This document shows positions 1-30,846 of a stretch of 64,000 bases of DNA, one piece after another. The DNA is from Rhodococcus sp. P1Y (lineage in GTDB: Bacteria > Actinomycetota > Actinomycetes > Mycobacteriales > Mycobacteriaceae), in NCBI RefSeq assembly GCF_003641205.1, contig NZ_CP032762.1, forward strand, positions 3,720,001 through 3,784,000. Direction: 5' to 3'. Made by a program: the position numbers and the translations under genes. Numbering within the stretch: position 1 is the first letter of the stretch; every line of letters starts with the position of its first letter. The notes below the pieces were generated by a model. That model did not search any database. It worked only from the letters and a program-made list of their open reading frames with translations, and was not told the origin of the DNA.

Positions 1-673
1 AGCTCTGATCACGGAGGCGTCGAGCGCAGTCGGTGCTCCCATCCTTGTCGGTTCCGTGCTGGTCAACGACGACAGGACTACGACCAACTCGGTAATCGTG
101 TGGAACGGCGCAGCCGGACCAGGGGAGCGCCACGACAAGAAGATCATCCAGCCGTTCGGCGAGTACCTGCCTTATCGGAGTTTTTTCAGGTTGTTCTCCG
201 AGTACGCGGATCGTGCCGGGTATTTCGTCCCGGGCACTGGCAATGGTGTTGTGCACGCTGACGGCACCGCGATCGGAATTGCTACGTGCTACGAGGTGGC
301 GTTCGATCGTGCGCTTTCCGAATCAGTTCGGTCGGGTGCGCAATTCATCGCGATTCCGACGAACAACGCGACATTCGGTGATACCGAAATGACCTATCAG
401 CAGCTTGCCATGTCACGGGTTCGTGCCGTCGAGCACGGCCGGTCGGTCGTGGTCGCTGCGACGAGCGGGATCAGCGCCACCGTTTCGGTCCGAGGGCAGG
501 TAATCCAGCAGTCCGATCTCTTCGTCCCCGAGACGCTTGTTCAGCAGATCCCACTCCGTTCCGACACGACCATCGCGACCGAGCTCGGAGGAATCCCAGA
601 AGCAGTTCTGTGTGTTTTCGCTGGACTGTTCGTACTACTCCGCGTGGTGGCGTCTCGTAAAACAAACCTATAG
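1..673 (+). CDS. lnt: Apolipoprotein N-acyltransferase, C-terminal part (5' end outside window)
   Basis: The reading frame is open from base 2, so this is the C-terminal part of a gene that began upstream. Lnt transfers the third acyl chain to the N-terminal cysteine of lipoproteins at the outer face of the membrane. The visible part is the nitrilase-fold domain: KKIIQPFGEYLPYR carries the conserved Lys and the PFGEYLP motif, CYEVAFD carries the catalytic Cys, and PTNNATFGDTEMTYQQ follows. A last hydrophobic helix (AVLCVFAGLFVLLRVV) precedes a basic tail, as in the family. In mycobacteria the acyltransferase is fused or adjacent to the polyprenol-phosphate-mannose synthase Ppm1, with RbpA next to it. 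Here the gene stops and the peptide synthetase locus follows instead. Confidence 0.88.
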   Translation, partial: ALITEASSAVGAPILVGSVLVNDDRTTTNSVIVWNGAAGPGERHDKKIIQPFGEYLPYRSFFRLFSEYADRAGYFVPGTGNGVVHADGTAIGIATCYEVAFDRALSESVRSGAQFIAIPTNNATFGDTEMTYQQLAMSRVRAVEHGRSVVVAATSGISATVSVRGQVIQQSDLFVPETLVQQIPLRSDTTIATELGGIPEAVLCVFAGLFVLLRVVASRKTNL

Positions 674-1283: not shown

Positions 1284-4200
1284 ATGCGAGCCGCGGTTTC
1301 AGGCGAGTCTCAAGGTTCACTTCCCCCAGGAGGTAGCACGTCCGAAGGTTTCCCGCTGTCGTCCGCACAGCGCGGAATGTGGTTTGCACAACAATTGGCT
1401 CCGCAGGTTCCGGTCTGCATTGCTCAGTACGTCGACCTTCGTGGCGACCTGGATGTCGAACTTCTACGTAAGTCGACTCGGCAGGCGGGTCACGAATTCC
1501 AGTCCGCGTTCATCCGACTGTCCGAGGTCGACGGCGAACCGGTTCAGGTCGTCGATCACAGCATCGACGACTCCGTGGATTACATGGATCTGCGCTCCGA
1601 GCCCGAGCCGATGGCTGCAGCAAAGGCATGGATCGATGAAAACTACACTCTGCCAGTAGATCTCACAAAAGACCGGCTGGTCAGCGTATGGATCATCCAC
1701 GTCGAGGACGATCGGTACCTGTGGTATAGCAAGATTCACCACGTCGCGCTGGACGGCTACGGAGCCATGACGATGGTCAATCGCACCGCCGAGCTCTACA
1801 CGGCCGAGCTCGAGGGACGCGACGCGCTTCCCGCCAAAGCGGCGGATCTGAAGAAGCTGTACGACCTGGACCAGGAATATCGATCATCCAGTCGATTCGA
1901 AACCGACCGCGAGTACTGGGCCGAGCACGTCGGCAACGCAGTCAGCGGTGGCACGTTGGCTTCGAACCCGGGACCGACGGTCGCGGCGAGCAAGCTCGAA
2001 AGCGCAGCCCTCGCCGACGATGTAGTCGACGCGTTGCAGGATTCGGACGCCACCAAGAGCGCGACCGCCGCCGCCGTCGTCATCGCCGCGTTCGCGTGTT
2101 ACCTCTCACGTATGACAGGTCAGGACGAGGTCCTGGTCAACATTCCGGTGTCGGCCCGGACAACCGCGCTACTGCGTCGCTCGGGTGGCATGCTGGTCAA
2201 CGTCGCACCGCTGTCGATTCGAGTCGACCCGCAGGGCACCGTCGGGGAATTGATTCAGCAGGTCCAGCTCGAGCTGATGGGGGCGCTGAGACACCAGCGA
2301 TTCAGTATCGAAGACATTCGCCGAGACCTGGCGAGCCGAGGTCTCGGTAGTGCGTTGATCGGCCCGATGGTGAACGTCATGTTGTTCCACCAGGAAATCA
2401 ACCTGGGTCCGATTGCCGGCGAATTCAACATTGTCACGTCGGGCCCGGTCGAGGATCTACTGGTAAACATCTACCAGAGCGGTACGCCCGCAAAGACATT
2501 CGTGGACTTTCGGGGAAATCCGAATCGCTACACCAACGACGATCTCGCGTCGCACCATGGCAGTTTCATCGAGGTTGTGCAGGCCTTCGTCGAGGCGAGC
2601 CCGCACGATGCAGTCGACGAAGTTCATGGCCCCAGTTCCGCGGTGGGAGTAAGGCGGCGCGCTGAGCGTGCCGAATTGGCTTACTGGACGTCCATTTTGG
2701 CCGACGCTCCCGACCCTGTTGCGTTTCCGGGAATCACGAGGCAACCCGAAAACTCGCGTGCGCGCGACCTGCGCACTGTTGTCAGCACAATCGACGGTGC
2801 GGTGCACCGCGATCTGCTCACAGCAGCGCATCGGCAAAATTCGAGCGTGTTGGTGGCAGTGCACTCCGCGCTTGCTGTTCTGCTCTCACGTTTGTCGAGC
2901 GAATCGGACGTGTCGATCGGCGTCCGAACGCGGTCCACGGGCGGAAACGTGGTCGTTCTCCGCGCATCGGTGGATGCTGCGGAGTCGTTCACAAGTCTCG
3001 TCGGACGCCTGCGAGATGTCGACTCGATTGCGCTTGCGCACGCGGGTACGTCGTTGGAGTCGGTTTCGGACAGCGTGAACGAGGTCTACCCCACTCGGTC
3101 CGGTCTCGTCCGCGTGCTGTTGTCGTTCGGGGTCGAATCTCCTTCGGCGGATCTGGACGACATCGATGTCGTGGTGAAGGTCGAGGAAACCTTCGACGCA
3201 CTCGGAGTCCCGGCAGGCTTGTCCGTCGGATTCACCTACGACTCGTCGTCCGCGGACGAGCACACGGTCCGTGCTCACAGCGATCGACTGACGGCCGTAC
3301 TCACAGCAGTTGCCACGGATGCAGCGGTGACCGTCGGCGACGTCGATATCATCACAGAGTCCGAGCGCGAGGTGCTGGTGCCGGTGCGCGGCGGTGCGTC
3401 GGTGGGTGGGCTGTTGTTGTCGGACGTGTTCGCCGATGCGGTAGGTCTGGCCGGCGTGGATTCCCTGGCGCTCGTTGTCGCCGACGCCGATGCGAGCGGC
3501 GGGTCCGCGCGCGGAACTCAATCGATGTCGTACGGCGAACTCGACGCTCGATCCTCGATGTTGGCCGAGTTGCTGGTGGCTCGTGGGGTCGGTGTCGGCT
3601 CGTTCGTTGCGTTGGGCCTGAGGCGTTCGGTGGAATATGTCGTGGCGGTGTGGGCGGTGGCGAAGGCCGGTGCGGCGTTCCTGCCCGTCGATCCGTCGTA
3701 TCCGGTGGACCGCGTGAGTCACATGTTGTCGGACTCGGGCGCTGTGGTGGGTGTGACGGTGTCGGAGTACGCGTCGGTTCTGGCGGACGCAGGCCCGTCG
3801 GTCGGTTGGGTCGAACTAGACAGCGTCGACCTGGTCTCGACGCGTGAAGAGGTTGTCACACTTCCGGTTCCGAGTCTCGACGATGCGGCCTACTTGATCT
3901 ACACCTCGGGTTCGACCGGTGTGCCCAAGGGCGTCGTCGTCACGCATCGGGGTCTGGCCGACATGGCGGAACTGGAGCGAACGAAGTTCGGGGTCGAGGT
4001 CGGTTCGAGAACGCTGTCGTTCGCGTCGACGAGTTTCGATGCGTCGGTGTTGGAATTGGTGTTGGCGTTCTGTGGTGGGGCGACGATGGTGATCGCGCCG
4101 ACGGATGTGTTCGGTGGGGTCGAGTTGGCGGAGGTGTTGGCACGGGAGTCGGTGTCGCATGCGTTCGTGACGCCTGCTGCGTTGGCGTCGGTGGACCCGT

Positions 4201-7200
4201 CGGGTCTCGATTCGCTTCGGGTGGTGGTGACCGGCGGTGACGCTGCTGGTTCGGAGTTGGTGGAGCGGTGGGCTGTCGGTCGGTCGATGTTCAACGCGTA
4301 CGGTCCTACCGAGGCGACCGTGTTCTCTTCGGTGAGTGCACCGATGACCCCTGCAGTGGCCATCGACATCGGCTCACCGATCACCGGTTCGCAGCAGCTG
4401 GTCCTCGACTCACGACTACGGCCCGTTCCTGTGGGTGTTGCGGGTGAGTTGTATCTGTCGGGTCCAGGTGTTGCTCGTGGGTATCACGCGCGGTTCGGGT
4501 TGACGGCGGAGCGTTTCGTTGCCGCACCGTTCGGTGTGGGTGAGCGTATGTACCGCACTGGAGATGTGGTGCGGTGGAACGGCTCCGGTGCCCTCGAGTA
4601 CGTGGGTCGTAGCGATTTCCAGGTCAAGGTGCGTGGGTTCCGTATCGAGTTGGGGGAGATCGATTCGGTTCTCGCCGCGCGTTCCGAGGTCGACTTCGTC
4701 ACGACGCTCGGTGTCGACGGACCTGCAGGCAACACGGTTCTCGTGGCATACGTGCTGCCGGTGACAGGCAGTGTCATCGACGTCGAGGCGCTGCGGGAGC
4801 ATGCGACCGCGGCACTTCCGTCTCACATGATTCCCTCGGCCTTCGTCGTGCTCGAGTCGATTCCGCTGACGCCTGCAGGCAAGCTCGACAGGAGAGCTCT
4901 GCCCGCACCGGACCTCGAACGTACGTCTGAGTTCCGTGCTCCTCGCACCGATCGTGAACGTCGAATCGCAGAGGTGTTCGCCGATCTCCTCGGCAATGCC
5001 AGGGTCGGAATCGACGACAGCTTCTTCGATCTCGGCGGAAACTCACTCGTGGCAACGCGTCTGATCGCTCGGGTCAATGCCGACCTCGGAACCGGGCTTC
5101 GAGTTCTGGATCTGTTCGAGGCTCCGACCGTCGAGGCACTGTCCGTCCGCGCGGAGCAGACTGCGGGATCGTCGACGAGGCCTCCACTGGTTGCAGGGGT
5201 GAGACCAGAGGTCCTGCCCCTGTCGCAAGCGCAGCAGCGAATGTGGTTCATCAACCAGTTCGACACATCGTCGCCCGCCTACAACATTCCCCTGGCGGTA
5301 CAGCTGACCGGTGAGCTCGACATCTCGGCGTTGGGCGCTGCCGTCGACGATGTCGTCGCCCGCCACGAGAGTCTGCGCACGACGTTCCCCACGGTGGGGG
5401 AGTTGCCGCGCCAGAACATCCACGACGTCGATCGGTCCGCATTCACGTTCGACGTTGTTTCACTCCCCGAAGGGGACATGTCTGCCCGGATAGCGGCAGA
5501 CGCATTGCATGGGTTCGACGTCACGGTGGATCGACCGTTTCGTGCCCGCCTCTACAACCTGATCACCGACGACGGCACATCGAATCGGTTCGTCCTGACG
5601 ATCGTCGTCCATCACATCGCCGCCGACGGCGCATCGATGGCTCCACTGGCCGTCGATGTCATGACGGCCTACTCCGCACGGGTAGACGGAAATGCGCCGA
5701 CCTGGGCGCCGCTCACGGTTCAGTACGCCGACTATGCCGTGTGGCAGCACTCGCTGATGGGCGATGAATCCGATCCGGAATCGCTGGTGTCGCGGCAGCT
5801 CGCATTTTGGTCGCAGACACTCGCCGATGTCCCTGACGTGTTGCCGCTGCCGATCGACCGGCCTCGCCCGCCGCAGCAGTCGATCGCCGGAAGTACACGA
5901 CACTTCGAGATTCCCGCGGATCTGCGTGCAGATCTCGCTCGCCTCGGCGCGGACAACGACGCCACTTTGTTCATGGTCGTACATTCGGCGCTGGCACTAC
6001 TTCTCGCGCGGCTCAGCGGTACCGAGGACATTGTCGTCGGCACGCCGATCGCCGGCCGCGGCGAAGCAGGCTTGGACAATCTCGTAGGAATGTTCGTCGG
6101 GACGATCGTGCTGCGTTCCACGGTTTCTCCCCACGTATCTTTCACCGACTTGCTCGCTGCGACACGCGCTCGCGATCTGGCGGCATTCGACAACACCGAC
6201 GTTCCGTTCGAGCGTCTCGTCGAAGAACTGGCGCCGTCACGTTCGACCGATCACTCGCCTCTGTTCCAGGTTCTGCTCGAATTCCAGAACAACGAGACCG
6301 TACATCTCGAACTGGCCGGATTGGCGGTCGACTTCAGCGAACTCGACACGGGGACAACCAAGTTCGATTTGCAGCTCCGTGTCGACGAGCAGGTATCGGC
6401 CACGGGCGCGTCCACGGCTGCATTCACGTACTCGACCGCGCTGTTCGATGCGTCGACCATCGACAACTTCGTCGGCCGGTTCCTGCGGTTGCTGAGGTCG
6501 GTCACCGAGTCGCCGGCAGCACCGCTGCGTGACATCGAGATCCTGTCGGTAGCCGAGCGTGAAACCGTTCTCCAGGAATGGAACTCGACTGAACATGCGC
6601 TTCCGTCGGTGGTCGGCGACGATCCCACACTAGGTTCGCTGTTCGACCTGCAGGTAGCGCGAAGCCCGTACTCCATCGCACTCGTTTTCGACGACGAGCA
6701 TGTCACCTACCGTGAACTCGACGAGCGGGCCAATCAACTCGCACGGCACCTCGTCTCCCTGGGAGTGGGGCCTGAATCCCACGTCGGATTGGCAATCCGC
6801 CGTTCGACGGACCTGCTGATCGGTATGTACGCGATCGTCAAGGCCGGTGGCGCGTACGTTCCGATCGATCCCGACCATCCGGTGGACCGGTCCTCGTACG
6901 TCCTCGACAGCGCCAAGCCCGTGTGCATCCTGACCACCAGTCGTGACTGGATCGACGTCTCGGTTGCGACGCCCGTACTGGCGATCGACCTGATCGACGT
7001 CTCGGATCGACCGACGGCGCCGCTGAGTGCGCGCGATCGTCTCGGAGTCGTCACCGGGCGCAACACTGCGTACGTCATCTACACCTCAGGATCGACCGGG
7101 CGCCCGAAGGGGGTCGCCGTCACGCACGAGGCGATCGTCAACAGGTTGCTGTGGATGCAAGACCAGTACAAGCTGGAACCGTCGGACAATGTCCTCCAGA

Positions 7201-10200
7201 AGACTCCGGCCACGTTCGACGTGTCGGTGTGGGAGTTCTTCTGGGCACTGCAGGTCGGCGCGAAGCTGGTCATCGCCGCACCGGACGGTCATCGTGACCC
7301 GGAGTACCTGTCGCGGTTGATACTTCGCGAGCGGATCACGACGCTGCACTTCGTGCCGTCGATGCTGTCGGTCTTCGTCGACGGCGCGCACCCGGAGGAC
7401 TGCGAATCGTTGCGGTTGGTCTTCTGCAGCGGTGAGGCATTGCCACCTGCGGCCGTCGATGCCTTCTCGAACTTCTCCGACGCGGCTCTGCACAACCTGT
7501 ACGGGCCGACCGAAGCCGCCGTGGATGTCACTTACTACCACTGCGCAACAACCGATTCGACATCGATCCCCATCGGTGCGCCGGTATGGAACACGCGCGT
7601 GTTCGTGCTGGACGCGTCACTGAAGCCTGCACCCATCGGGGCACCGGGCGAGCTGTACCTAGCGGGCGTGCAACTGGCCCGCGGGTACGTGGGACGCGGC
7701 GACCTCACGTCGGATCGGTTCGTCGCAGATCCTTACGGCGAGTCGGGTTCCCGCATGTATCGAACGGGAGACCTCGTTCGATGGCGCGCGGACGGCAACA
7801 TCGAATACATCGGTAGGACCGATTTCCAGGTCAAGCTGCGCGGGCTACGGATCGAGTTGTCGGAGATCGAAGCTGCGCTCCTTCGGCAGCCGTCCGTCGG
7901 ACAGGCTGTCGCGATCGTGCACCGCACTGTCTCGACAGGTGAGATCCTTGTCGCCTACGTGGTGCCGGCCAGGGACGTCGAGTTCGAGTCGGCCGCCGTA
8001 ATCGACTCCGTGGCAGCATCGCTCCCGTCCTACATGGTGCCTTCGCTCCTGGTGGAGTTGTCGGAGTTTCCCCTCAATGCAAGCGGCAAGCTCGACCGAA
8101 AGCTGCTGCCGGAACCGGTGTTCGGACTGTCGGACGACGAGATCATCGCGCCGTCGAACCCCATCGAGGAGATCATTGCCTCGGAGTTCGTCGACCTGCT
8201 CGGTGGCGATCCGGTCGGCGTGACCCAGAACTTCTTCGCGGTCGGCGGCAACTCGCTCGTTGCGATGAGGTTGGTCGCCAGAATCAACTCCGCGCTCGGT
8301 TCGACACTGACTGTGCGTGACCTGTTCGATGCGCCGACCGTGCGCGCGCTGGCATCGACCGTCGAGTCGCAGGGGTACCGAACCGACCCGAAACCGGCGC
8401 TCGTCCCGATCGAGCGCCCTTCGGCTGTGCCGGTGTCACTTGCACAGCAGCGCATGTGGTTCATCAATCAGTTCGACACCTCCTCCGCTGCGTACAACGT
8501 CGCCTTCGCGATGCGGATGACCGGCCGACTCGACCTCGATGCACTGCAGAGTGCTGTGGGTGATGTCATCGATCGGCATGAATCGCTGCGTACTGTCTTC
8601 CCCCTCACCGACGACGGTCCGGTCCAGTCGATACTCGAGTCGCACCAGGCGCTACCCGATCTCACGGCTGTGCGGGCGGAGTCCGAAGAGCAGGTCGCCG
8701 AGTTGGTCGCCGAGGTGGTCACCACCGGTTTCGATGTCTCGAGCAGCGTCCCTGTTCGAGCCCGCCTCATCGAGGTCGCCGAGAACGAGCACGTCCTTGC
8801 GTTCGTGGTCCACCACATCTCGTCCGACGGCTTCTCGACGGCTCCGCTTGCCCGCGATCTGATCGTGGCGTACAGCGCCCGAACTCTTGGCGAAGTTCCG
8901 ACCGCGGCTCCGCTCCCGGTGCAGTACGCGGACTACTCCCTGTGGCAGCGTTCGTTCCTCGGGTCCGAATCGGATCCGTCGTCGCTTATGTCTTCGCAGC
9001 TCGCGTTCTGGGTCGAGGCGTTGTCGGGTGCACCCGAGGTCATCGAACTGCCCGCGGACCGTCCACGTCCCACCGAGTCGTCGTTCAGTGGCGCCGTGGT
9101 GGAGTTCCACATCGGTGCCGATGTCCACCAGCGGATGGCAGCGGTGGCGTCGAGCCACGACTCCAGCGTCTTCATGATCGTGCACGCCTCGTTGACCGTT
9201 CTGTTGTCGACGCTGTCGGCTTCGACCGACATTTCCGTCGGCACTCCGATCTCCGGTCGCGGCGACGCAGCACTCGACGACCTCGTCGGCATGTTCGTCA
9301 ACACGCTCGTGCTTCGGACCGAGGTCGATCCAGCCGCCACATTCGAGGATCTGCTCACCCAAGTTCGATCTGCGGACCTGGCGGCCTTCACCCACGCGGA
9401 CATTCCCTTCGAGCGCATCGTCGACGCGCTCGATCCCGTTCGGTCCACCGCGCACACACCACTGTTCCAGGTGATGCTCGAGTTCCAGCACACCGATCGG
9501 CCGAACATCGAGCTTCCCGGTCTCAATGTCCAGGCGATGGAGCTGGCCGACGACATCGCCAATTTCGACCTGCAGTTGACCGTCTCCGAATCGTTCGACG
9601 CCGAGGGCGCACCCGTAGGGATCGACGCCTCGTTCCGTTACGCGACAGACCTTTTCGATCGATCCACCGTCGAGCAGTTCGCTGCGCGGTTCCAATCGAT
9701 TCTCGATACCGTTACTGCCGATCCCAGCGGAGCTGTCGGCGACGTCGATCTACTTTCGCCCGAGGAATACTCCGCGCTGACGCCGGTCCGAGGCCCCGAA
9801 CCGGGCGCGGAGCAGCTCCTGCCCGAGATACTGGCCGACGCGGTCCAGTCGGCGGGACCTTCTGCCTTGGCGTTGGTATTCGACGGCGGCGACATGACGT
9901 ACGGCGAGCTCGACTTTCGCTCGTCTCAGCTGGCACGCATGATCATCGACCACGGCGTCGGTCCGGGCGACGTCGTGGCACTTGCACTTCCGCGTGGAGC
10001 GGACGCGATCGTCGCAGTCTGGGCGACCGCGAAGGCCGGCGCAGCATTCCTACCGGTCGACCCGACCTACCCCACGGATCGAATCACCCACATGATCACT
10101 GATTCGGGTGCAGCACTGGGTCTTACGTCGATGGCCGACAACGCACAGCTCGCTGCGCTGTCGGATTCGATCGTGTGGGTCGTTCTCGACGATCCCCGGT

Positions 10201-16200: not shown

Positions 16201-19200
16201 GGCCTGTCTTGGAGCCGGTCGTTCGACCGGATGTCGTGCCGCTGTCGCAGGCGCAGCAGCGAATGTGGTTCATCAACCAGTTCGACACATCGTCGCCCGC
16301 CTACAACATTCCGCTCGCGGTCCAGTTGACCGGCGAATTGGATGTTGCTGCTCTTGGCGCGGCTGTTGGGGACGTACTGGACCGACACGAGACGCTGCGG
16401 ACGACGTTCCCGATGGCGGGGGAGTCACCGCGTCAGCTGATCCATCCGTTCGAGGACTCGTTCACGTTCGTCGCAGTGCAGATCGGCGAGGCCGATTTGA
16501 CTACGCGGGTACTGACCGATGCAGCACGCGGTTTCGACGTCACTGTCGATTCGCCGTTCCGAGCGACGTTGTACCGGGTTTCGGAAGATCGTCACGTGCT
16601 GGCAATCGTCGTTCACCACATCGCTGCCGACGGCGCATCGATGGCTCCGTTGGCCGCAGACGTGATGGTGGCGTACTCGTCCCGGGTGGCGGGAACAGCG
16701 CCGCTGTGGCGGCCGCTCGACGTACAGTACGTCGACTACACGCTCTGGCAGCGATCCCTGCTCGGGGACGAGAGCGACCCCCAGTCGTTGGCTGCGCGTC
16801 AACTCGCGTTCTGGTCGAAAACACTCGCGGACGTACCGGATTCCCTGACGTTGCCGACCGATCGGCCTCGACCCGCACGGCCGTCGTTGCGCGGTGCCTC
16901 GGTTACGTTCGACGTACCTGCTCAGACCCATGCAGCTCTCGTCGGTGTGGCCCGTCGAGCGCAATCCACGATGTTCATGACCGTGCACGCCGTGTGGTCC
17001 ATGTTGCTGGCACGGCTGAGCGGCACCACCGACATAGTGGTCGGTACACCGATCGCGGGCCGCGGTGAAGCTGGCTTGGACGCGCTCGTCGGCATGTTCG
17101 TCGGAACCCTTGCACTCCGAACGGAGGTGTCCCCGCACGCCACGTTCGACGAACTGCTCGCCGCAACGCGCGCTGCAGATCTGGCTGCATTCGACAACAC
17201 GGACATTCCTTTCGAGCGGCTTGTCGACGTCCTGGCACCCTCGCGTGCGACCGACCGATCACCTCTGTTCCAGGTCCTGCTCGAATTCCAGAACAACGAA
17301 CCGGCGCACCTCGAGCTGCCCGGCCTGGATGTTCGGGGCCTCGAATTCGATGCAGGCGTCGCCAAGTTCGATCTGCAACTGACAGTGTCGGAACGTTACG
17401 ATTCCGACGGCGCGGCGGCGGGCATCTCCATGGCCCTGACGTACGCAACCGATCTGTTCGACGAGCGGACGGTTCGCGAGTTCGCGGATCGGTTCACCGC
17501 CCTCGTCGACGGTGTGGCGTCGGCGCCCGAAACGGCCGTAGGGGACATCGAGATTCTGTCGAAGTCCGAGCTCACGGCACTACGGACCGAGTTCAACCAC
17601 GCCGGTGTACGCCCGTCGGACGAGACCCTGACGGCTCGATTCAGCTCTGCAGCACTGCGATTCCCGGATCACACTGCGGTCGTGTTCGGCACCGAGCGAT
17701 ACACCTACGCTCGTCTGGAGGAGCGGGCCAATCAGTTGGCGCGGCATCTCGTGTCCGTGGGGGTTGGTCCCGAAACGCTCGTTGCGGTCGCCATGCCGCG
17801 CAACGCCGACCTGATCGTCGTGTTGCTGGCCGTGTTGAAGGCAGGCGGCGGATACCTTCCGGTCGATGTCACCTATCCGGCCGATCGACTCGCGTTCATG
17901 CTCGAAGACGCGCAACCAGTCTGTGTCGTCTCGACCGTCGCCGACATCGAATCCGTACCTGCACAAGGTGTTACGCCGGTGCTCGTCGACGAGCCGGAGA
18001 CTGCCGCGGCGATCGCCTCGCTCGCATCCGGGGCGCTGACAGCGTCGGAACTCAACGGCGAGTCGACGGCGGGGTCGATCGCCTACGTCATCTACACCTC
18101 GGGAAGCACCGGGCGACCGAAGGGCGTTCAGGTCACCCACCAAACCGTTGCGACGTTGTTCGAGAACACGATCGACAAGTTCGGGTTCGACGAGACGGAC
18201 GTCTGGACGATGTTCCACTCCTACGCCTTCGATTTCTCCGTATGGGAGCTGTGGGGTCCGTTGCTCCACGGCGGAACCCTCGTCGTCGTCGACTACTACA
18301 CCGCACGTTCACCCGAGTTGTTCCGTGAACTGCTCGTGAGCGAACAGGTCACCGTGCTCAATCAGACGCCGACCGCGTTCTACCAATTCGCCGAAGCGGA
18401 CCGGACTGCACCTTCCGAATCCGAGCGCCTCTCCCTGCGCTACATCGTGTTCGGCGGCGAAGCGCTCGACCTGGGGCAGCTCGGCCGTTGGTACGCACGT
18501 CACCCGGAGGATTCTCCGGTTCTGGTGAACATGTACGGCATCACCGAGACAACAGTCCACGTGAGTCATCTACCGCTGACCGAGGATTTCGCTGCGTCCG
18601 CGTCCGCAAGTGTCATCGGCCAGGCCATCCCCGGACTCGCCGTGTCGGTACGCGACGATCGACTACGCCTCGTTCCTCCCGGCGTGACGGGTGAGATGTA
18701 CGTATCGGGCGGGCAACTCTCGCGTGGTTACCTCGGTCGCACCGGGTTGTCGTCCACTCGCTTCGTGGCCGACCCCGACGGCGCATCCGGTGACCGGATG
18801 TACCGCACCGGCGACACAGCTCGGTGGAATCGAGACGGACAGCTCGAGTACCTCGGCCGCAGCGACATGCAGGTTCAGCTTCACGGTTTCCGGATCGAGC
18901 TGGGTGAGATCGAATCTGCTCTGCTCGACTCCGACGGAGTTGCGCAGGCCGTCGTCTCGGTCCGCGACGACGGCGCAGGAGATCGTCTTGTCGGCTATCT
19001 CGTTCCGGAAGTCGGCCGCACGCTCGACACCACCGCTGTTCTCGATCAGGTGTCCACGACTCTGACGTCGTACATGGTGCCCGCCGCGCTCGTTGTTCTT
19101 GCGGAGTTGCCGCTGACAGCGAACGGAAAACTCGACCGAAAAGCTCTGCCTGCGCCCGATTTCTCTTCTCGGGTCACGCAGAGCCGTGCGCCCGCCTCGG

Positions 19201-22200
19201 AGATCGAACAGAGCTTGTCGACACTGTTCGCCGAGGTTCTCGGACTGGACTCCGTCGGAGTGGACGACTCGTTCTTCGCGCTCGGCGGCGACAGCATCAT
19301 GTCCATTCAGCTGGTCTCCCGCGCGAAAGCAGCCGGCCTGGTCATCGCACCACGTGACGTCTTCGAGCGTAAGACGGTCGCAGGCCTCGCCGAAGTTGTG
19401 GCCCTCGCCGAAGACGCCGAGGTCGTCGTACTGGAAGAGCTCCCGGGCGGCGGAGTCGGTGAGTTGCCGCTGACACCGATCGTGCAGTGGATGCTCGAAC
19501 GGAGCGAGCAGTTCGGTCGCTACACCCAGACCGCGCTACTTCAGCTTCCGCCCGCAATCGAACGACCCGTGCTCGAGCGCACGGTGCAGGCCGTTCTCGA
19601 CACCCACGACATGCTGAGGGCACAGCTCTCCAAGGGCGTCGACGGTGAGTGGACCGAGAGCGTTGCGCCAGTCGGGTCGGTACCGGCATCGTCGGTCCTG
19701 CACCACGTGGACGTCGACGCCGTCGTCGGAGACGAGTTCTCGCAGATTGCAGCTCGCGAACTCGACGCGGCTGCGGACCGTCTCGATCCTGCCGTCGGCC
19801 GAATGGTTCAGATGGTGTGGTTCGAGAGTCCGGCAGGCGCAGGTCGACTGCTCGTCGTCGCTCATCACCTCGTCATCGACGGCGTCTCCTGGAGAATTTT
19901 GGTACCGGACCTGGCGACGGCGTGGTCGCAGATCGTTTCGGGTACCGAGCCGGTTCTCGCCGAAACCGGAACCTCGATGCGGCGCTGGGCGACCGGGCTC
20001 GTCGAGGTAGCTGCCACCCGTACCGACGAGATCGACCTCTGGACCGACATCCTTTCCGGCGACGATCCCGACATCGGTTCGCGCCCACTCGATCCCACGG
20101 TCGACGTGGATGCCACCGTGGAGCGAATCAGGGCATCGTTGCCGGCGTCGGTGACCGAGCACCTCCTCACCACGGTGCCGGAGAAGTTCCACGGCAGCGT
20201 CAACGACGGGCTGCTCGCAGGTCTTGCGCTCGCGCTCGTGGCGTGGAGGAACGAACGCGGATCCTCTGTGTCCGACGCACTCGTGAGCCTCGAGGGTCAC
20301 GGACGTGAAGACGGTGTCGTTCCCGGCGCCGACCTCGGGCGGACCATCGGCTGGTTCACCACCATCTTCCCGGTGCGGCTCGATCTTGTCGGAATCGACG
20401 TCGACGACGCTCTGGCCGGCGGCAACGCAGCAGGCGAGCTGATCAAGGCCGTCAAGGAACAGCTGCTGAAGATCCCCGATCACGGGATCGGATTCGGCAT
20501 GGCCAGGTACTCGACGCCGGTCGGACGCGAGGCCCTCGGCGGCTTTGCGAAGCCCCAGGTCAGCTTCAACTACCTGGGACGATTCTCCACCGGGTCGTCC
20601 GAGGGCATGGAGGACGTCGGTTGGATTCCGGTGTCGGACCTCACCCTTGGTGACGCGCAGAACCCGAACATGCCGGTTCCGGCACTGCTGGATATCAACG
20701 CAGTGACCAATACGACCGACGCGGGACCGGTTCTGGACGCAACGTTCGCGTTCCCCAGCGGCGTCCTGGCCGCGTCCGACGTGAATCGGTTGATCGAACT
20801 GTGGGTTCAGGCCTTGACCGCGCTCACCACGCACGCCGACGCATCCACCTCCGGTGGTTACACGCCGTCCGACCTCGATCTCGTCGATATCGATCAGTCC
20901 ACGATCACGGTGCTCGAGCAGCAGTTCCCCGGGCTCGACGACGTCTGGTCGATGTCGCCTCTGCAGTCTGGACTTCTGTTCCACGCACGTCTCGCGGGCG
21001 AGGTCACCGGCGAGGTCGACCTCGGTGTCGACGCCTACATGGTGCAGCTCGGACTGGAACTGCGCGGTGTGGTGGATGCGGACCGCATGAAGGCCGCGGC
21101 GCAGGCGCTGCTGGACCGGCATGCCAACCTTCGAACTGCGTTCGTACACAACGCAAGCGGCGAGTCCGTGCAGATCGTGCAGACAGGGATCGATGTTCCG
21201 TGGTCGCACGTGGACCTTCGGGGCTCAGAAGACCCGTCCTCCGACCTCGAGGCAGTTCTCGAGCAGGACAGGGCAGTGCGCTTCGTCCTCGACCGCGCGC
21301 CTTTGCTGCGGTTCACGTTGATCACCAAGGCGGAGGGTGAGTGGCGATTGCTGCTCACCAACCACCACATCCTGCTGGACGGATGGTCCACGCCGCTGCT
21401 GATCAAGGAACTGCTCACGTTGTACGCCACGGCAGGCGACGATTCGATGTTGCCCCGGGTACCGGCGTACCGCGACTACCTGAGCTGGATGCGTCGGCGC
21501 GACGCCTCTGTATCCAAAGCCGAGTGGACGAGGGCTCTCGCAGGTGTCGAAGAGCCGACACTGTTGGCGGATGCGGACCGCGGACGGCAGCTCCAGGGCA
21601 CGTCGGTCGAATCGACGCATTCACTCTCGCGCGAGGTCACTGCATCGCTGCGAGATCTGGCTGCTCAGCGAGGCGCCACGCTCAACACCATCGTGCAGAG
21701 CGCATGGGGTGTGGTGCTCGCAGCATTGACCGGTCGAGACGACGTCGTCTTCGGGGCGACAGTCTCGGGGCGGCCGCCGGAGATACCGGGTATCGAGTCC
21801 ATGATCGGGCTGTTCATCAATACGCTGCCCGTGCGGATTTCGCTCGACCCGGCCGAAGCGCTCGGCGACCTCGTCGACCGCGTTCAGTCGGAGCAGGCGT
21901 CGCTCCTCGATCACCATTACCTGGGCCTGACCGATATTCAGCGCGCAGCGGGTAACGGTGTTTCGTTCGATACCCTCACCGTGTTCGAGTCGTACCCGGT
22001 GGACCGGGCTGGACTGTCGGAGGAGACCGACATCGCCGGGCTCCGCGTCGCGGACGTTCTCGGCGCCGACGCCGCTCACTACCCGTTCACGTTGGTGGCG
22101 TCGGTGGACGATCGACTCCACCTCAAGGTCAAATACCTGCCGGAACTGTTCTCCGACAGCGATATCGAGCGAATCATCGCGCGCGTCGTCCGGGTCTTGG

Positions 22201-25200
22201 ATGCGGTCGTGACCGACGATCGCGTACCGCTTGCACGCGTTGGACTGCTCGATTCCGCCGAACGTGCGGCGCTCGCACCTGTCTTCGGACCCGAGGGCGG
22301 TAGTACGAAGCTTCTCGCGCACATCTTCGAGAACGCCGCCGTCGTCGCGTCCGGGCGGACGGCTGTCCGGTTCGGTGAAACTACGTTGAGCTACGACGAG
22401 TTGGACGATCGATCGAGTCGCCTCGCCCGAGTTCTGCTGGCGCGTGGTGTGTCTGTCGAGTCGTTCGTCGCTCTCGGACTGCCACGATCCATCGAATCGG
22501 TTGTCGCAGTGTGGGCTGTAGCGAAGACGGGAGCGGCGTTCGTTCCGGTGGATCCGGGCTACCCCCGAGATCGCATCGAACACATGGTCGCCGATTCCGG
22601 AGCCGAGTTCGGTATCGCTGTGAGCAGTCGCGTCGGCGATCTCCCGGATGCGCTGGCAGGTGGCAACGAGTGGCTCGTCCTGGACGACGCAGACGTGATC
22701 GCGGAACTCGAGGCCCAATCGCCACTCCCGTTGAAGGAGCACGAGCGTGTTTCCGGTCTGACGGTGCAGAGCACCGCCTACGCGATCTACACCTCGGGTT
22801 CGACCGGGCTGCCCAAGGGCGTCGTCGTCACACACTCGGGGCTGGAGAACTTCTCCCACGAACAGAACGAGCGCTACTCCATCACCCTGGAGTCGAAGAC
22901 CCTGCACGTCTCGTCGCCGAGTTTCGACGCATCGGTTCTCGAATACCTTCTGGCATTCGGTGCGGGCGCGACCATGGTCGTCGTGCCTCCGACTGTCTAC
23001 GGCGGCGAAGAGCTGCACGAGATCCTCTCTCGTGAGCAGGTGACCCACGCATTCATCACGCCGTCCGCGCTGGCATCGGTGAACCCCGTCGGTCTCGAGT
23101 CGTTCCAGCACGTCGTGGTCGGCGGCGAAGCAGTGCCGGCCGAACTTGTCGCGAAATGGGCACCGGGTCGACGTCTCTACAACGGGTACGGTCCGACCGA
23201 GACGACGATCATGTCGAACATCAGCGATCCGATCGACCCGGCAGGTCCGCTCACGATCGGTGGTCCGATCCGCGCGGTGCACGAGGTCGTGTTGGACAGG
23301 CGACTGCAGCCAGTTCCGATCGGCGTCCAGGGCGAGCTGTACCTCGCGGGCGCAGGCCTCGCCCGGGGTTACCACGACCGTCCCGGTCTGACTGCCGAGC
23401 GGTTCGTCGCCAACCCGTTCGGCGCACCGGGGGAGCGCATGTACCGCACAGGCGACGTCGTCCGATGGACCTCCGACTACACCGTCGAATACGTTGGCCG
23501 TAGCGACTTCCAGGTCAAGGTCCGCGGATTCCGCATCGAACTGGGCGAGATCGACGCCGTTCTCGCTACCCATCCGAGCGTCGACTTCGTGGCTACGATC
23601 GGAACCGACGGTCCTTCCGGCGCAACAGTTCTCGTTGCGTATGTCCGGTCGGCGGTCGTCGGTGAGTCGATCGACCACGCCGAACTCACGTCACACGCGT
23701 CGGCCACCCTGCCGGGCCACATGGTGCCGTCGGTGATCGTGCAGCTGGACAGCATTCCGTTGACCCCGGTCGGCAAGCTCGACCGACGAGCTCTCCCGAC
23801 GCCGGAGTTCTCTGTCGGGTTCGGCGATTATCTTCCGCCTCGTACGCCCGCGGAAACCGCGGTCGCGGAGATTTTCGCCGACACGCTCGGTGCCGATCGC
23901 ATGGGAGCTCTCGACAACTTCTTCGACCGCGGTGGGGATTCGCTGTCGGCGACGAGAGTGATCGCCAGGGTCAACGCGGCGCTCGGGACTCGTCTCGGTG
24001 TCCGCGCAATATTCGAGGCGCCGACGGTCGCTGCACTCGCCGGCCTCGCGGACGAGGCCGGGGAGGGCGAGCGTCGACCGGTTCTGCGCGCCGCACCCCG
24101 TCCGACGAGGATCCCGCTGTCGCTTGCGCAGCAGCGGATGTGGTTCATCAACAGGTTCGATCCGACGTCACCTGCGTACAACGTTCCACTCGTGGTGAAG
24201 CTGACAGGTTCCTTGGACACCTCGGCCCTTCGGTTCGCCGTATCGGACGTGCTGGAGCGTCACGAGTCCCTGCGCACGACGTTCCCGTCCACGGACCTCG
24301 GTCCGGAGCAGTACATCCACCACGCAGCGGACGTCCTACCCGAGATCGAGATCAGTGCCGTCGGCCAGGACGAGCTGGAGCCTCGGCTCGTGAAGTTCGC
24401 CGGCATCGGATTCGACGTCACGACGGAGATTCCGATCCGCCTGGCGCTGTACCGAATCGAGGGCACGCAGCAGACGACGCATGTGCTCGCAGTCGTCGTT
24501 CACCACATCGCAGCGGACGGGGCGTCCATGGCCCCCCTCGCTCGCGACGTCATGGTTGCGTACTCCGCGCGCACCGCCGGCGCAGAGCCGTCGTGGGCAC
24601 CGCTGGAGGTTCAGTATGCCGATTACACGATGTGGCAGCGCTCGCTCCTCGGTTCCGAGGACGACCCCACGAGCATTGCCGGTCGTCAGATCGGGTTCTG
24701 GCGTGAGGCTCTGGCCGGTGTGCCGGACCTCTTGCCGCTCCCGACCGATCGACAGCGACCGACCACGCAGGATTTCCGCGGTGGGCGAGTCAAATTCGAT
24801 ATCGACGCCGACCTTCACCAGCGAATCGCCACATTTGCGCGTGAACGCAATGCGACGATGTTCATGGTCGTGCACAGTGCATTCGCGGCAACCTTGGCGC
24901 GGCTGAGCGGCATCGACGACATTGCGATCACGACGCCGGTAGCAGGACGCGGTGAAGCCGCGCTCGACGATCTCGTAGGAATGTTCGTCAACACCCTCGT
25001 CCTGCGGACCATCGTGGACGCGGGCGAATCCTTCGATGCACTGCTCGCCCGTGTCGTCGAGTCGGATCTAGAGGCGTTCGGACACACCGAGATTCCGTTC
25101 GAACGGATCGTCGAGGTCGTCAACCCGGCACGGTCCACGTCGTACGCCCCGCTGTCGCAGGTCGCGCTGTCCTTCCAAAACAACACCAAGGCACAGCTCG

Positions 25201-28046
25201 AGCTTCCGGATCTGACGGTCGAAGGATTCGATTTCGACGCCCCGGTTGCCAAGCAGGATCTGCAACTGCTGCTGTCGGAGACGTTCGATGCCACTGGCAA
25301 CGCGGCAGGCATCGAAGGTGCTGTCGACTACGCAGTCTCGCTGTTCGACGCATCGACCGCGGCGTCGTTCGCGGATCGGTTCGTGAGGGTGCTCGACGCT
25401 GTTGTCGGAGATCCTGTCTCGCCCGTCGGCGACGTCGATATCCTCGGGCCGACGGAACACCCGCGTTTCGCTCCAGCCAGGGGCGACGAGGGTGCGGAGG
25501 AGAAGTCGTGGCCGCAGATCCTGGCTGCCGCGGCCGCGAACAATCCCGACGGCGTGGCCGTCGAATACGGCGATGTCGGACTGACTTACCGCGACCTCGA
25601 CGAGTGGTCGACGCGAATCGCGCGGATGCTGATCGATTTCGGTGTCGGACCCGAGACGTTCGTCGCGCTGGCACTGCCACGCTCGATCGAGTCGATTCTG
25701 TCGATCTGGTCCGTTGCCAAGACCGGGGCTGCATTCTTGCCTGTCGATCCGAACTATCCGACGGATCGCATCGCACACATGCTCGATGATTCCCGTGCGC
25801 CCATCGGAATCACCGTGCGCAGTCATCGGGGTGCACTACCCGATTCGATCACGTGGCTTGTGGTGGACGACGAGGACTTCACTGCGGACATCAAGCGATA
25901 CCCGACGGATCCGGTGTCCGATGCCGATCGCACGACACCGCTGCACTTGGACAATCCGGCGTACCTGATCTACACCTCGGGCTCTACCGGACGTCCGAAG
26001 GGTGTTGCGGTCCGCCATCGTGGACTCACGAACCTCGAGGACGAGGTCACGCTCCGGTTCCACCCCACCCGCGAGTCCCGGATCTCGCATATCGCGTCGC
26101 CGAGTTTCGACGCCTCGGTGTACGAGCTCACGATGGCATTCGGCGTGGGTGCCACGGTCGTTATCGTGCCTCCCGGAATTTTCGGCGGTGACGAGCTGGC
26201 AGATCTGCTCGAACGCAGCCGGGTGACCCACGCGTTCCTGACGCCTGCTGCACTGGCGTCCATCGACCACACACGGTTGGCGGACGTGGGTGTCCTCGCC
26301 GTGGGCGGCGAGGCATGTACGCCGGAACTCGTCTCACGGTGGGCACCGGGCCGAATGATGTTCAACGGCTACGGACCGACGGAGACCACCATTCAGGCAA
26401 GCGTCGGTGGCCCGTTGATGCCGGGCAAGATCATCGACGTCGGTAGTCCCGCAATAGGATTCAGGTTCCTGGTGCTCGACGCGCGACTGCGTCCTGTGCC
26501 GATGGGTGTGCCCGGTGAGCTCTACATCGCTGGACCCGGAACAGCGCGAGGATACGTCGATCGCTTCGGCCTGACCGCCGAACGCTTCGTCGCCGACCCG
26601 TACGGCGCGGAGGGCGAACGTATGTACCGCACGGGTGACGTCGTACGGTGGACCGGCGATCACACGATCGAATTCGTCGGTCGCAGTGACTTCCAGGTGA
26701 AGGTTCGCGGTTTCCGAATCGAACTCGGTGAGATCGATTCGGTTCTCACCGACCATCCTTCGCTGAACTTCGCAGCGACGGTGGGCCATACCGCACCGTC
26801 CGGGGACACCGTGCTGGTGTCGTACGTCCGAGTCGTGGACGGGCACGGAATCGATGTCGCCGAGGTTTCCGAGTACGTGGCGTCTATCCTGCCGCGGCAC
26901 ATGGTCCCCACGGCGATCGTCGTTCTCGACGAGATCCCGTTGACACCGGTGGGCAAACTCGATCGACGGGCTCTGCCTGTTCCCGAATTGACCGCCACTA
27001 CCGTGCCGTACCGCGCTGCTACGACCCCGACCGAACAGGCCGTCGTCGACGTCTTCGCCGACATCCTTGGCGTCGAACGCGTCGGTCTCGACGACAACTT
27101 CTTCGACCTGGGCGGAACATCGCTCGTCGCAACACGTGTCGTGCCTGCCCTCGAGGCAGCGACCGGTGTCCGGGTGCCGTTGCAGTCGCTGTTCCTCGAT
27201 CCGACCGCGGCCGGGCTCGCCGCACGGATCGACGGCCACGACGCCGACACCTCGACGGGACTCGACAGCGCCTTCGGCGTGGTGATTCCGTTGCGCGCTC
27301 AGGGGAGTGGCACTCCGTTGTTCTGCATCCATCCGGGAATCGGACTGTCGTGGGGATACTCGGGAATTGTCAGGCATCTGGCCGAAGACCGGCCCGTGTT
27401 CGGCCTCCAGCTGCCGACGATCACCGAGGGTGGTTCGTTCGACTCGATCCAAGCGCTTGCGCAGCGCTACGCGTCCGAGATCCGCCGGGTGCAACCGGAG
27501 GGTCCGTACAACGTGCTGGGCTGGTCGCTCGGCGGTGCTATCGCACACGCGGTCGCGGTCGAATTGCGGCGTGCAGGCCAAGACGTCGAGTCCGTGACCA
27601 TCATGGACAGCTACGTCGACGACTCGGCTGAGTCGCCTCAGGGACGACTCAGCGTCGAGGAGCTCTTGGCCGGACTCGGCCTCGACCTCGCTGAGTCCGA
27701 GACCGAATCGCCGTTGACGTACGAGGGCGCAGTCGAGTTGCTGAACGCATCGTTCGGGCAGGAAACCGGATTGACTCCGGCTCACCTGGAGCGCATCAAC
27801 GACGGATTCGCGAACTCGACGGCCATCATGAATCGGTTCGTTCCCGACGTGTTCGACGGAGACATTCTGTTCTTCTCTGCAACGCAAGGCTCCGGTGACG
27901 GAATCGAGCGCGACCCGGAGCAATGGAATGAATTCGTTACCGGTCAGGTCCGAATTGAACCCATCGATTGTGCGCACAATCAAATGATCGAGCCAGACGT
28001 TCTCGAGCACATCGGCTCCGTGCTCGAGAACTACCTGGGAAACTGA
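1284..28046 (+). CDS. Seven-module nonribosomal peptide synthetase (8,920 aa)
   Basis: One polypeptide assembles a predicted heptapeptide. Domain order is C1-half C-A1-T1 / C2-A2-T2 / C3-A3-T3-E3 / C4-A4-T4 / C5-A5-T5-E5 / C6-A6-T6 / C7-A7-T7-TE. Every C and E domain keeps HHxxxDG (residues 152, 1443, 2510, 3576 E, 4071, 5111, 6194 E, 6694, 7740). The seven carrier serines are near 1254, 2324, 3387, 4928, 6004, 7553 and 8613. TE serine is 8748 in GWSLGG, with a candidate His in DCAHNQM. C1 and TE resemble EntF, which implies an acyl or aroyl starter delivered in trans. C4 and C6 follow E domains and carry SPLQSGxLFH, as DCL domains do. The ATG is preceded by GAAAGGG at 1271-1277. No MbtH-like protein, starter ligase or phosphopantetheinyl transferase is visible in the window. 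The product is unknown. Confidence 0.97.
2679..3350 (+). other. Vestigial condensation half-domain inside module 1
   Basis: Residues about 467-690 ([12 protein letters not shown] through VGDVDI) align with the C-terminal subdomain of the later LCL condensation domains, which begin there with [11 protein letters not shown] and end with the same GD(V/I)(D/E)I linker. The N-terminal subdomain carrying HHxxxDG is absent. The segment lies between a complete C1 and A1, so it looks like the remnant of an LCL domain whose front half was lost or replaced. It may still serve as a C-A docking platform. Confidence 0.75.
3741..4912 (+). repeat. Duplicated adenylation segment, copy 1 (A1)
   Basis: This segment matches 14763-15934 at a constant offset of 11,022 bp (3,674 codons). 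By my reading 3741-3940 differs from 14763-14962 at a single base. Similarity continues with mostly silent changes, broken by variable stretches near 3941-4013 and 4375-4420. Codon use inside is unusual, with many TTG, GTG and GGT codons (for example ttggaattggtgttggcg), unlike the CTC/GTC-rich flanks. Confidence 0.9.
5200..8395 (+). other. NRPS module 2: C-A-T, predicted L-Ser
   Basis: C2 is an LCL type ([20 protein letters not shown] at 1443). A2 carries [25 protein letters not shown] and [11 protein letters not shown], giving code D-V-W-H-F-S-L-V-D-K. That is a well-known serine code, close to EntF's. T2 has VGGNSL with Ser 2324. Confidence 0.88.
8400..12990 (+). other. NRPS module 3: C-A-T-E, D-residue of unknown identity
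   Basis: C3 is an LCL type with HHISSDG at 2510. A3 gives code D-A-L-F-A-G-A-I-F-K, a relative of A1/A4 and not assignable with confidence. T3 has the GGDSI motif typical of carrier domains that feed an E domain (Ser 3387). E3 (about 3442-3880) has [11 protein letters not shown] with the active His pair at 3576. Confidence 0.85.
13060..16200 (+). other. NRPS module 4: DCL C-A-T, same code as module 1
   Basis: C4 has the DCL signature [13 protein letters not shown] and HHILIDG at 4071. A4 reads D-A-L-F-V-G-A-V-F-K, identical to A1, and its DNA is nearly identical to A1 over long blocks. T4 has LGGDSL with Ser 4928. Confidence 0.85.
14763..15934 (+). repeat. Duplicated adenylation segment, copy 2 (A4)
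   Basis: Second copy of the segment at 3741-4912. The 11,022-bp offset also holds for the carrier serine codons (5043 and 16065) and for a block at the start of the following C domains (5231 and 16253). This suggests that an A-T-C unit was duplicated or homogenised rather than A alone. Confidence 0.9.
16200..20850 (+). other. NRPS module 5: C-A-T-E, predicted D-(allo-)Thr
   Basis: C5 is an LCL type (HHIAADG at 5111). A5 has [26 protein letters not shown] and [11 protein letters not shown], giving code D-F-W-N-V-G-M-V-H-K, a classical threonine code. T5 (GGDSI, Ser 6004) is followed by E5 with HHLVIDG at 6194, so D-allo-Thr is expected. Confidence 0.87.
20910..24085 (+). other. NRPS module 6: DCL C-A-T, unassigned substrate
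   Basis: C6 has [13 protein letters not shown] and HHILLDG at 6694. A6 gives code D-A-L-F-V-G-G-I-M-K, which I cannot assign. T6 has RGGDSL, with Arg in place of the usual Leu before the GG (Ser 7553). Confidence 0.83.
24090..28046 (+). other. NRPS module 7: C-A-T-TE, unassigned substrate, chain release
   Basis: C7 is an LCL type with HHIAADG at 7740. A7 reads D-A-Y-F-A-G-G-I-Q-K, the most divergent of the A1-like group. T7 has LGGTSL (Ser 8613). The thioesterase (about 8678-8920) has [17 protein letters not shown] (Ser 8748), MDSYVDD and CAHNQM, and resembles the EntF TE. Hydrolysis or macrocyclisation, perhaps through the Ser2 or Thr5 hydroxyl, is possible. Confidence 0.85.
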
Positions 28047-28135
28047 GCGCCTTTGTGCACTGAAATCGGCATTGTGGGAATATCATTTGGGCGAAGAAGT
28101 GTAATAGTTCATCCGACAACGGTCTGGGGATGCGT

Positions 28136-28747
28136 GTGAAAAGAATGAAGTCAGTGGCGACAGCGGCAGTGACCCTGCTGGCGGCCACTTCGGTGACCAT
28201 TGCCTTGGGTGGGGGAACGGCAAATGCTGATCCTACGGAGTCGATCGGTTACGAAACCTCGGTCACACCGGAAGGTGCAGTCAGCACCGTGCTCGATGCA
28301 GGCGCGTTTCGCGTCGATGCAGATTCCGACACGGTCGACGTCGTCGGCAGTTCCGGAACCGTTTTGGCGAGCCTGCCACTGACGTATTCGGTGAACGGCG
28401 CAACCTATTCCATCGCGCCCGCCATTGTGGGGGAGAGGCAATTGCTGCTCACCCCGCAGCCCGCCGCCGCGCTGGTGAATCAGGTCGCAGGCCCTGTCAG
28501 CAAGCAGGCTGCGCTCGACAATGCAATTAATCAGATCGTGATCGGATACACCAACGGTGGTGCAATCGGCACTGCAGTCGGAGCCGGACTTGGCTTTGCC
28601 ATCGGTTGTGTGTCGATCTTCCCGAACTTCATCGCAGGCTGCATCATCGGCACCGCGATCGGCGTCGTTGCAGGCACGATCATCGGAACGGTCAACGCAA
28701 ATCCGAACGTTCAGCCGGCAGTGTTCGAGTACTTCGCAACTCCCTAG
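28136..28747 (+). CDS. Secreted Gly-rich protein of the actinobacterial DUF8020-like type
   Basis: This is a protein of about 203 aa with a signal peptide (basic start, then SVATAAVTLLAATSVTIAL, cleavage after TANA). A beta-type segment (ISYETSV-like, TVLDAGAFRVDADSDTVDVV, LPLTYSVNG) comes next, and then a Gly/Ala/Ile-rich membrane-like half with two cysteines (GCVSIF, AGCIIG). I recall this layout from exported Rhodococcus/Nocardia proteins grouped as DUF8020; the family name is from memory. Three starts are possible. ATG 28130 touches its own GGGG, while GTG 28136 has proper spacing from GGTCTGGGG (28121-28129); ATG 28145 is the third. It lies 89 bases after the synthetase stop on the same strand, so it may be co-transcribed. 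Function unknown; a role in export or self-protection is speculation. Confidence 0.75.
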   Translation: MKRMKSVATAAVTLLAATSVTIALGGGTANADPTESIGYETSVTPEGAVSTVLDAGAFRVDADSDTVDVVGSSGTVLASLPLTYSVNGATYSIAPAIVGERQLLLTPQPAAALVNQVAGPVSKQAALDNAINQIVIGYTNGGAIGTAVGAGLGFAIGCVSIFPNFIAGCIIGTAIGVVAGTIIGTVNANPNVQPAVFEYFATP

Positions 28748-28760
28748 CTGTCAGGAAACG

Positions 28761-28795
28761 AAGCCCGGCGGAACCTCAGACGTCCCGCCGGGCTT
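28761..28795. terminator. Bidirectional terminator between NRPS-side genes and pap operon
   Basis: AAGCCCGGCGG (28761-28771) pairs perfectly with CCGCCGGGCTT (28785-28795) around a 13-nt loop, with TGTTTT after it on the plus strand. It separates two convergent genes. The right arm lies inside the last codons of the minus-strand gene. Confidence 0.85.
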
Positions 28796-30839: not shown

Positions 30840-30846
30840 CGCAAGA

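Follow-up and report, generated by a model that had tools for sequence, protein, structure and literature searches.

The closest described counterparts of the synthetase analysed here are those of the humimycins A and B, which are said to be IupU of R. equi and a gene of R. erythropolis, reportedly after Chu et al. in 2016; the two residues that set humimycin B apart (Tyr and Ile) we take to stand at positions 4 and 6. Humimycin A is given, in the part of PMC12024397 that describes it, as beta-hydroxymyristoyl-Tyr-Ser-D-Tyr-Phe-D-Thr-Val-Val, with humimycin B differing by one Tyr and one Ile, and both are presented there as linear acids obtained by solid-phase synthesis. In the sections of Ceniceros et al. 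that deal with these genes (PMC5550956), iupU is identified as the humimycin A non-ribosomal peptide synthetase (NRPS), and humimycin NRPSs are described as having a C-starter domain and as lying in clusters with a conserved amidohydrolase, an N-acyltransferase and an MbtH protein. The compounds were made by synthesis after prediction from sequence (passages of PMC5550956 and PMC7502451); PMC7502451 also names humimycins once among products isolated from Rhodococcus, and the passages seen describe no isolation.

The NRPS reported here is a real lipoheptapeptide synthetase, intact and conserved, and most likely of the humimycin type, with both relatives and a precedent; we put at about 0.7 the probability that it corresponds, in the Rhodococcoides (R. 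fascians) group, to the humimycin synthetase. The sequence-only reading had assigned it no known product, a view that fails because the predicted acyl-X1-Ser-D-X3-X4-D-Thr-X6-X7 is the humimycin plan: backbone, cap, positions of the epimerization (E) domains and the amidohydrolase and N-acyltransferase neighbours all agree with the humimycin NRPS as described in parts of PMC5550956 and PMC12024397. Like the humimycin synthetases, it has a C-starter domain and is predicted to build a heptapeptide with Ser2, D-Thr5, a D-residue at position 3 and aromatic-type residues at 1, 3 and 4, and the two neighbouring genes recur in the humimycin clusters. Unlike them, it has different pocket residues in A1, A3, A4 and A6 (the R. 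globerulus gene standing in for IupU), lacks a nearby MbtH gene and has a papA-papB pair alongside. The main ground for the assignment is the neighbour setting that this locus shares with R. globerulus, and our confidence is slightly lowered by limits in gene order and in tree support. The present chain has seven modules, the third and fifth of which include an E domain, the humimycin layout itself being deduced from the D-residues (PMC12024397) and from PMC5550956, in the parts of both that bear on it; paralogues with different codes can have the same plan.

In the proposed scheme, C1 would take a fatty acyl group in trans and place it on residue 1, the seven modules would assemble acyl-Aro1-Ser2-D-Aro3-Aro4-D-(allo)Thr5-X6-X7, the E domains would invert residues 3 and 5 with the downstream DCL domains accepting the D-residues, and the thioesterase would free the product as a linear acid or a lactone, macrolactone release being possible. 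The adjacent papA-papB pair may supply p-aminophenylalanine for the aromatic positions. We infer the lipid cap, the release mode, any antibiotic role (through MurJ) and expression of the NRPS. The synthetase itself is ordinary in kind, and the new part is the testable link to p-aminophenylalanine.

Architecture of the synthetase and its predicted peptide

The window, that is the whole stretch of 64,000 nucleotides analysed (G000:C1:3720001-3784000; 62.5% GC), belongs to a genome of 5.87 Mb in one contig. The NRPS frame runs on the plus strand from an ATG at 1284 to a stop at 28046 and encodes 8,920 residues with no internal stop, in keeping with the single intact chain of seven modules read earlier; a frameshift artefact, which that reading had named as a possible objection, is unlikely because frames of 8,788-8,978 aa are open at the matching place in 15 other genus genomes. 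Residues 1-700 match, at 55-79%, proteins of R. fascians, R. kyotonense, R. yunnanensis and other Rhodococcoides or Rhodococcus strains, and these named relatives place the source genome in the Rhodococcoides (R. fascians) group.

Pfam recognises condensation, AMP-binding, carrier and thioesterase domains in the protein, and a motif scan counts nine HHxxxDG, seven A3 and seven carrier motifs, which bears out the seven complete modules proposed from the letters. Condensation-type domains, some of them partial Pfam matches, lie at 1350-2435, 2670-3377, 5211-6566, 8427-9779, 11610-12983, 13092-14408, 16230-17573, 19461-20615, 20946-22274 and 24108-25457. With approximate bounds, and all on the plus strand, A1-T1 (3396..5153) is followed by module 2 (LCL-type C-A-T, 5211..8363), module 3 (LCL-type C-A-T, 8427..11558) with its E domain (11610..12983; HHLVVDG, EAHGRE, NYLGR), module 4 (DCL-type C-A-T, 13092..16178), module 5 (LCL-type C-A-T, 16230..19409) with its E domain (19461..20843; HHLVIDG, EGHGRE, NYLGR), module 6 (DCL-type C-A-T, 20946..24053) and module 7 (LCL-type C-A-T, 24108..27233). 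The motifs EGHGRE/EAHGRE and NYLGR, which we take to mark E domains, are confined to modules 3 and 5, and the SPLQSG(M/L)LFH-type motif, which we take to mark DCL domains, occurs exclusively behind each E domain; the placing of both domain types in the sequence-only reading was thus correct. That reading did not include the truncated second C domain of module 1 or the neighbouring pap-like genes.

Using the code columns of GrsA, we read the nine-position codes as DALFVGAVF (A1), DVWHFSLVD (A2), DALFAGAIF (A3), DALFVGAVF (A4), DFWNVGMVH (A5), DALFVGGIM (A6) and DAYFAGGIQ (A7). Those of A2 and A5 we take to be the standard Ser and Thr codes, and together with the E domains in modules 3 and 5 they predict the backbone acyl-X1-Ser-D-X3-X4-D-Thr-X6-X7, so that the earlier colinear prediction with Ser2 and Thr5 stands. 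By comparison with humimycin, the codes of A1, A3 and A4 are of aromatic type, and residues 1, 3 and 4 are presumably aromatic and residues 6 and 7 hydrophobic, the substrate of module 6 being uncertain. The code of A1, A3 and A4 ends in F in all 48 of the domains in the 16 seven-module clade genes read (16/16), a count that leaves out copies not read whole, the five-module gene of G011 and the partial gene of G021. In the outgroup genes, the last positions of A1 and A3 are both V, and that of A4 is G, M, M and V (R. globerulus 8,921, R. jostii 8,997, R. opacus 9,006 and Antrihabitans 8,990). Codes A1, A3, A4 and A6 differ from those of R. globerulus, the first three being alike but F-ending and A6 unlike; A7, at a humimycin Val position, is one residue off the R. 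globerulus code DAFFAGGIQ. The A6 code recurs unchanged in A4 of the R. jostii 8,997 gene. Of 36 other A domains that motifs reveal in the fetched stretches of the window's own genome, a single one has a DALF code (DALFVGAVA), and a literature look-up of six A-domain code strings found none of them.

A1 and A4 (3642-5290 and 14664-16312) share 88% identity, and modules 1 and 4 have exact DNA repeats as long as 136 bp in common, which points to recent recombination within the gene.

The adjacent pap genes

Two minus-strand genes converge on the NRPS. One (28776..30881) encodes a PapA-like fused GATase-PabB 4-amino-4-deoxychorismate synthase (TIGR00553, 364.7 bits against a cut-off of 328.4) with PIKGT and GATase motifs; the other (30847..31167) encodes a PapB-like 4-amino-4-deoxychorismate mutase (CM_2) that scores under the cut-off for TIGR01803 (64.9 against 73.35 bits) and matches PapB of the chloramphenicol-type cluster of G029 at 48%; JGI gives some of its relatives the name 4-amino-4-deoxychorismate mutase. 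It has no significant match to the other chorismate mutase of its own genome (E 0.11). PIKGT, which we take to be the aminodeoxychorismate synthase motif, stands where the TrpE-like protein of the same genome has PIAGT. A papC gene was found at G000:C1:2786374-2787225 (E 3.4e-87) by a search with a two-row PapC alignment, although the Pfam PDH_N search of the same genome missed it; the family searches (MbtH, chorismate-binding, chorismate mutase and PDH) covered this genome only. From its PapA-like, PapB-like and PapC-like genes, the genome appears to encode the full p-aminophenylalanine set up to transamination. Near 0.687 Mb of the same genome (L177:1180-3075) lies a chorismate-binding and GATase fusion that we read as having the PhzE order.

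Such a pap set makes p-aminophenylalanine in the dnacin and chloramphenicol systems, according to parts of PMC7570522 and PMC6148955. As in the PapABC pathway of chloramphenicol, pristinamycin and dnacin, a PIKGT synthase and a PapB-like mutase are adjacent and a PapC-like dehydrogenase is present in the genome; unlike in those systems, papC lies about 0.96 Mb from papA, some 5 kb past a large NRPS gene of another cluster. That cluster (G000:C1:2696001-2796000; L233-L237) has 24 A domains by motif, and papC follows its last NRPS gene. The best papC match has an E value of 2.8e-71 or lower in all 20 genomes searched, and papC and papB lie no more than a few kb apart in 10 of the 11 searched genomes that lack the locus of this clade, the contigs of the other (G067) ending there.

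We consider it tentative, and rather doubtful, that the product of the R. fascians clade is a relative of the humimycins with p-aminophenylalanine at positions 1, 3 and/or 4 (a natural lipopeptide with up to three anilines), the adjacent PapA-PapB and the distant PapC providing this residue and the pocket Phe marking it as substrate. Close orthologues of PapA (at least 73%) and PapB (at least 60%), at most 100 bases apart, occur in the same 30 of the 37 genus genomes as the NRPS, and PapA adjoins the NRPS in all eight clade loci whose downstream end was read, this one included. The remaining seven genomes hold more distant versions, PapA-like in six (53-58%) and PapB in three (45-48%); the co-occurrence does not amount to 37 independent points, and few events of loss or gain may lie behind the seven.

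There is an even chance, compatible with the main reading, that papA-papB have nothing to do with the NRPS, PapA being perhaps a folate enzyme and the pair lying near rbpA by position only. PapA is the sole bearer of PIKGT among the four chorismate-binding proteins found in the genome, and a row rbpA-papB-papA lies beside an NRPS start in two outgroup genomes (G331 and G067). One copy of papB is present in 10 of 11 outgroup genomes; 12 papB loci were read away from the present NRPS, and at 10 of them an NRPS or CmlP-like gene, often of another type, lies no further than about 11 kb off, while two (in Antrihabitans and G042) have none by motif. The position of papC near another NRPS cluster also suits this explanation. 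Against it stand PapB and PapC, for which no folate role is known, and the shared occurrence of the close orthologues with the NRPS, few independent events though this may represent. As a standard for a p-aminophenylalanine code, the CmlP-like A domain of G029 was tried and set aside: its code (approximately DASMQSAVC) bears no likeness to DALFxGA(V/I)F, which counts against p-aminophenylalanine and favours unrelated pap genes, although it is one divergent enzyme. A literature search, its results judged by title and abstract, found no report of p-aminophenylalanine in connection with a Rhodococcus NRPS cluster. The low standing that we give to p-aminophenylalanine in the peptide reflects the outgroup papB genes at other NRPS loci, the possible positional linkage, the folate role open to PapA, the code mismatch and the A6 code shared with A4 of the R. 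jostii gene.

If p-aminophenylalanine is used, then predicting substrates from codes only, as was done for the synthetic humimycins, would mislead in this clade, whose real molecules could have another charge and another activity.

Two further pap loci were read. The chloramphenicol-type cluster (G029:C15, L230:18057 to L231:7157) holds a class II DAHP synthase, PapB, a PapC-like protein, PapA, a CmlA-like hydroxylase and a CmlP-like A-PCP-reductase, and in Antrihabitans (G065:C24, L257:13358-17762) papB-papA-papC is followed by an AurF-type N-oxygenase gene.

Gene neighbourhood and paralogous synthetases

Directly upstream of the NRPS and codirectional with it are an Amidohydro_3 gene (PF07969; L021:16526-18127) and, after it, the gene for the Lnt apolipoprotein N-acyltransferase (517 aa; TIGR00546, 278.4 bits against a cut-off of 132.9), which starts upstream of the window (L021:18120) and whose C-terminal part occupies 2..673 on the plus strand; Lnt is presumably the N-acyltransferase meant in PMC5550956. 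An RbpA ORF on the minus strand (31460..31939; PF13397, conserved domain from residue 51) serves as a further marker, and RbpA likewise accompanies an NRPS of this sort in R. globerulus, R. jostii, R. opacus and R. triatomae. In R. globerulus (G061), which we take to be a member of the R. erythropolis group, an amidohydrolase (63%), Lnt (69%) and RbpA (91%) precede an 8.9-kaa Ser2/Thr5 synthetase, the amidohydrolase, Lnt and NRPS genes being codirectional. R. triatomae has the same gene order with an NRPS of five A domains, and in R. jostii and R. opacus RbpA is the one marker found next to such an NRPS. The position of RbpA differs, being 3.4 kb past the NRPS here and between Lnt and the NRPS in R. 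globerulus. Per-domain identity to the R. globerulus protein is 45-61% (33% for the half C domain), and A3 and A4 of the present NRPS match its A1 best. The family search of this genome found three MbtH genes, every one more than 1 Mb from the NRPS; MbtH is a companion of the cluster and no feature of the synthetase itself.

Directly after the NRPS (28130..28747, plus strand) comes a gene for a 205-aa protein with a signal-like N-terminus and no Pfam or NCBIfam match; it is kept behind the NRPS in all eight clade loci read (this one and seven others), and a 37% version lies behind the Antrihabitans gene.

Two trees, one of C1 (19 rows) and one of the rest of the protein (18 rows, G292_8998 being omitted as six A3 motifs were found in it), were built without an outside root. 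The eight rows of the R. fascians clade form a single, fully supported branch, and neither tree shows this clade to group with R. globerulus; in the 18-row tree it stands beside a paralogous 8.9-kaa group that includes a second R. globerulus gene, and not with R. globerulus/R. jostii. Unrooted trees of this kind do not settle orthology, and the R. equi and R. erythropolis genes lie outside the comparison, with R. globerulus in their place.

It is conceivable, although we think it unlikely, that the gene encodes a separate lipoheptapeptide synthetase, a paralogue in the manner of the R. erythropolis NRPS-5 family, which shares with the humimycin synthetase only the module plan and makes another lipopeptide such as a surfactant. 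More than one synthetase of 8.9-9.0 kaa with equal A-domain spacing is present in R. jostii, R. opacus and R. globerulus, and in the 18-row tree one such group adjoins the R. fascians clade, both of which speak for this explanation; the present NRPS has the same module spacing, starter and extra half C domain as the NRPS-5 family described in part of PMC5550956. The codes of the group differ, however, with Ser at position 4 and DAFTDVG(V/I)Q at position 7 in four of five rows, and the stretches read at the group's loci showed none of the Lnt, amidohydrolase and RbpA markers. A gene that may belong to the NRPS-5 family, that of 8,974 aa in R. globerulus, differs from the present NRPS in codes 1, 4 and 7 and likewise has no Lnt, amidohydrolase or RbpA match in the stretches read. 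In R. opacus (G064:C1; L147-L149), two synthetases of 8.9-9.0 kaa stand in tandem.

Within the genus, 30 of 37 genomes (this one included) contain the NRPS gene, by a match over residues 1-688 or more at an identity of at least 56%; the others (G002, G005, G015, G016, G023, G034 and G036) give weaker matches only. Such a conserved locus offers many strains in which to seek the true product. Several further copies are interrupted by contig ends or breaks in draft assemblies. R. fascians NBRC 12155 (= LMG 3623; G011:C4, L286/L287) has a five-module gene that lacks the Ser module and one aromatic module, possibly lost through recombination between similar A domains; a protein of 6,783 aa from R. 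fascians, represented by six member sequences, is consistent with this five-module gene.

Starter domain and thioesterase

The sequence-only reading had likened C1 and the thioesterase to EntF and proposed an acyl or aroyl starter. For the thioesterase (type I, GWSLGG; 27285..28043, plus strand; PF00975) the likeness holds, the EntF model being the best NCBIfam match (88.8 bits, against 71.7 bits for Pks13). For C1 (1350..2618, plus strand; HHVALDG at residue 152) it holds in part: the EntF and MxcG models do match, but in sequence comparison RzmA (214.7 bits), CDA (168.7) and ObiF1 (163.9) all outscore EntF (135.4). The fold search agrees: with an AlphaFold model of residues 1-700 (mean pLDDT 74.6), the starter domain of rhizomide RzmA takes ranks 1-3, followed by ObiF1 and more RzmA entries, with the first domain of CDA at rank 7 and the first EntF entry at rank 22. 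As the nearest solved relatives of C1 are the lipo-starters of RzmA and CDA, with EntF behind, a fatty acyl cap appears likelier than an aroyl cap, by similarity alone; the acyl half of the earlier proposal is kept and the aroyl half weakened. No acyl-CoA ligase was seen among the annotated genes beside the NRPS. EntF is thus a system whose model detects both C1 and the thioesterase, but from which the NRPS differs in its acyl-type starter and its seven modules.

That C1 accepts an aroyl group, such as DHB or p-aminobenzoate from the neighbouring synthase, and yields an aryl-capped peptide or catecholate siderophore is highly improbable: the matches to EntF and MxcG and the chorismate-using enzyme pair next door would fit, but C1 is closer to the lipo-starters in sequence and fold, the p-aminobenzoate pathway needs no PapB-like mutase, and neither an aryl-AMP ligase or ArCP nor a siderophore gene set or aroyl supply genes were seen among the annotated genes beside the NRPS, an annotation that does not cover every ORF.

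Behind C1 lies a second, N-truncated condensation domain (2670..3377, plus strand; residues 463-698, about 236 residues), a C-terminal half that matches positions 193-455 of PF00668 and lacks HHxxxDG. Its pLDDT is 71-94 in ten-residue blocks of the AlphaFold model. The half domain may be what is left of an elongation C domain in front of which a starter domain was added. Counted from the first HHxxxDG, the first A3 motif lies 682-739 residues away in all 19 synthetases compared, this one included; the corresponding spacing in the second module is 475-500.
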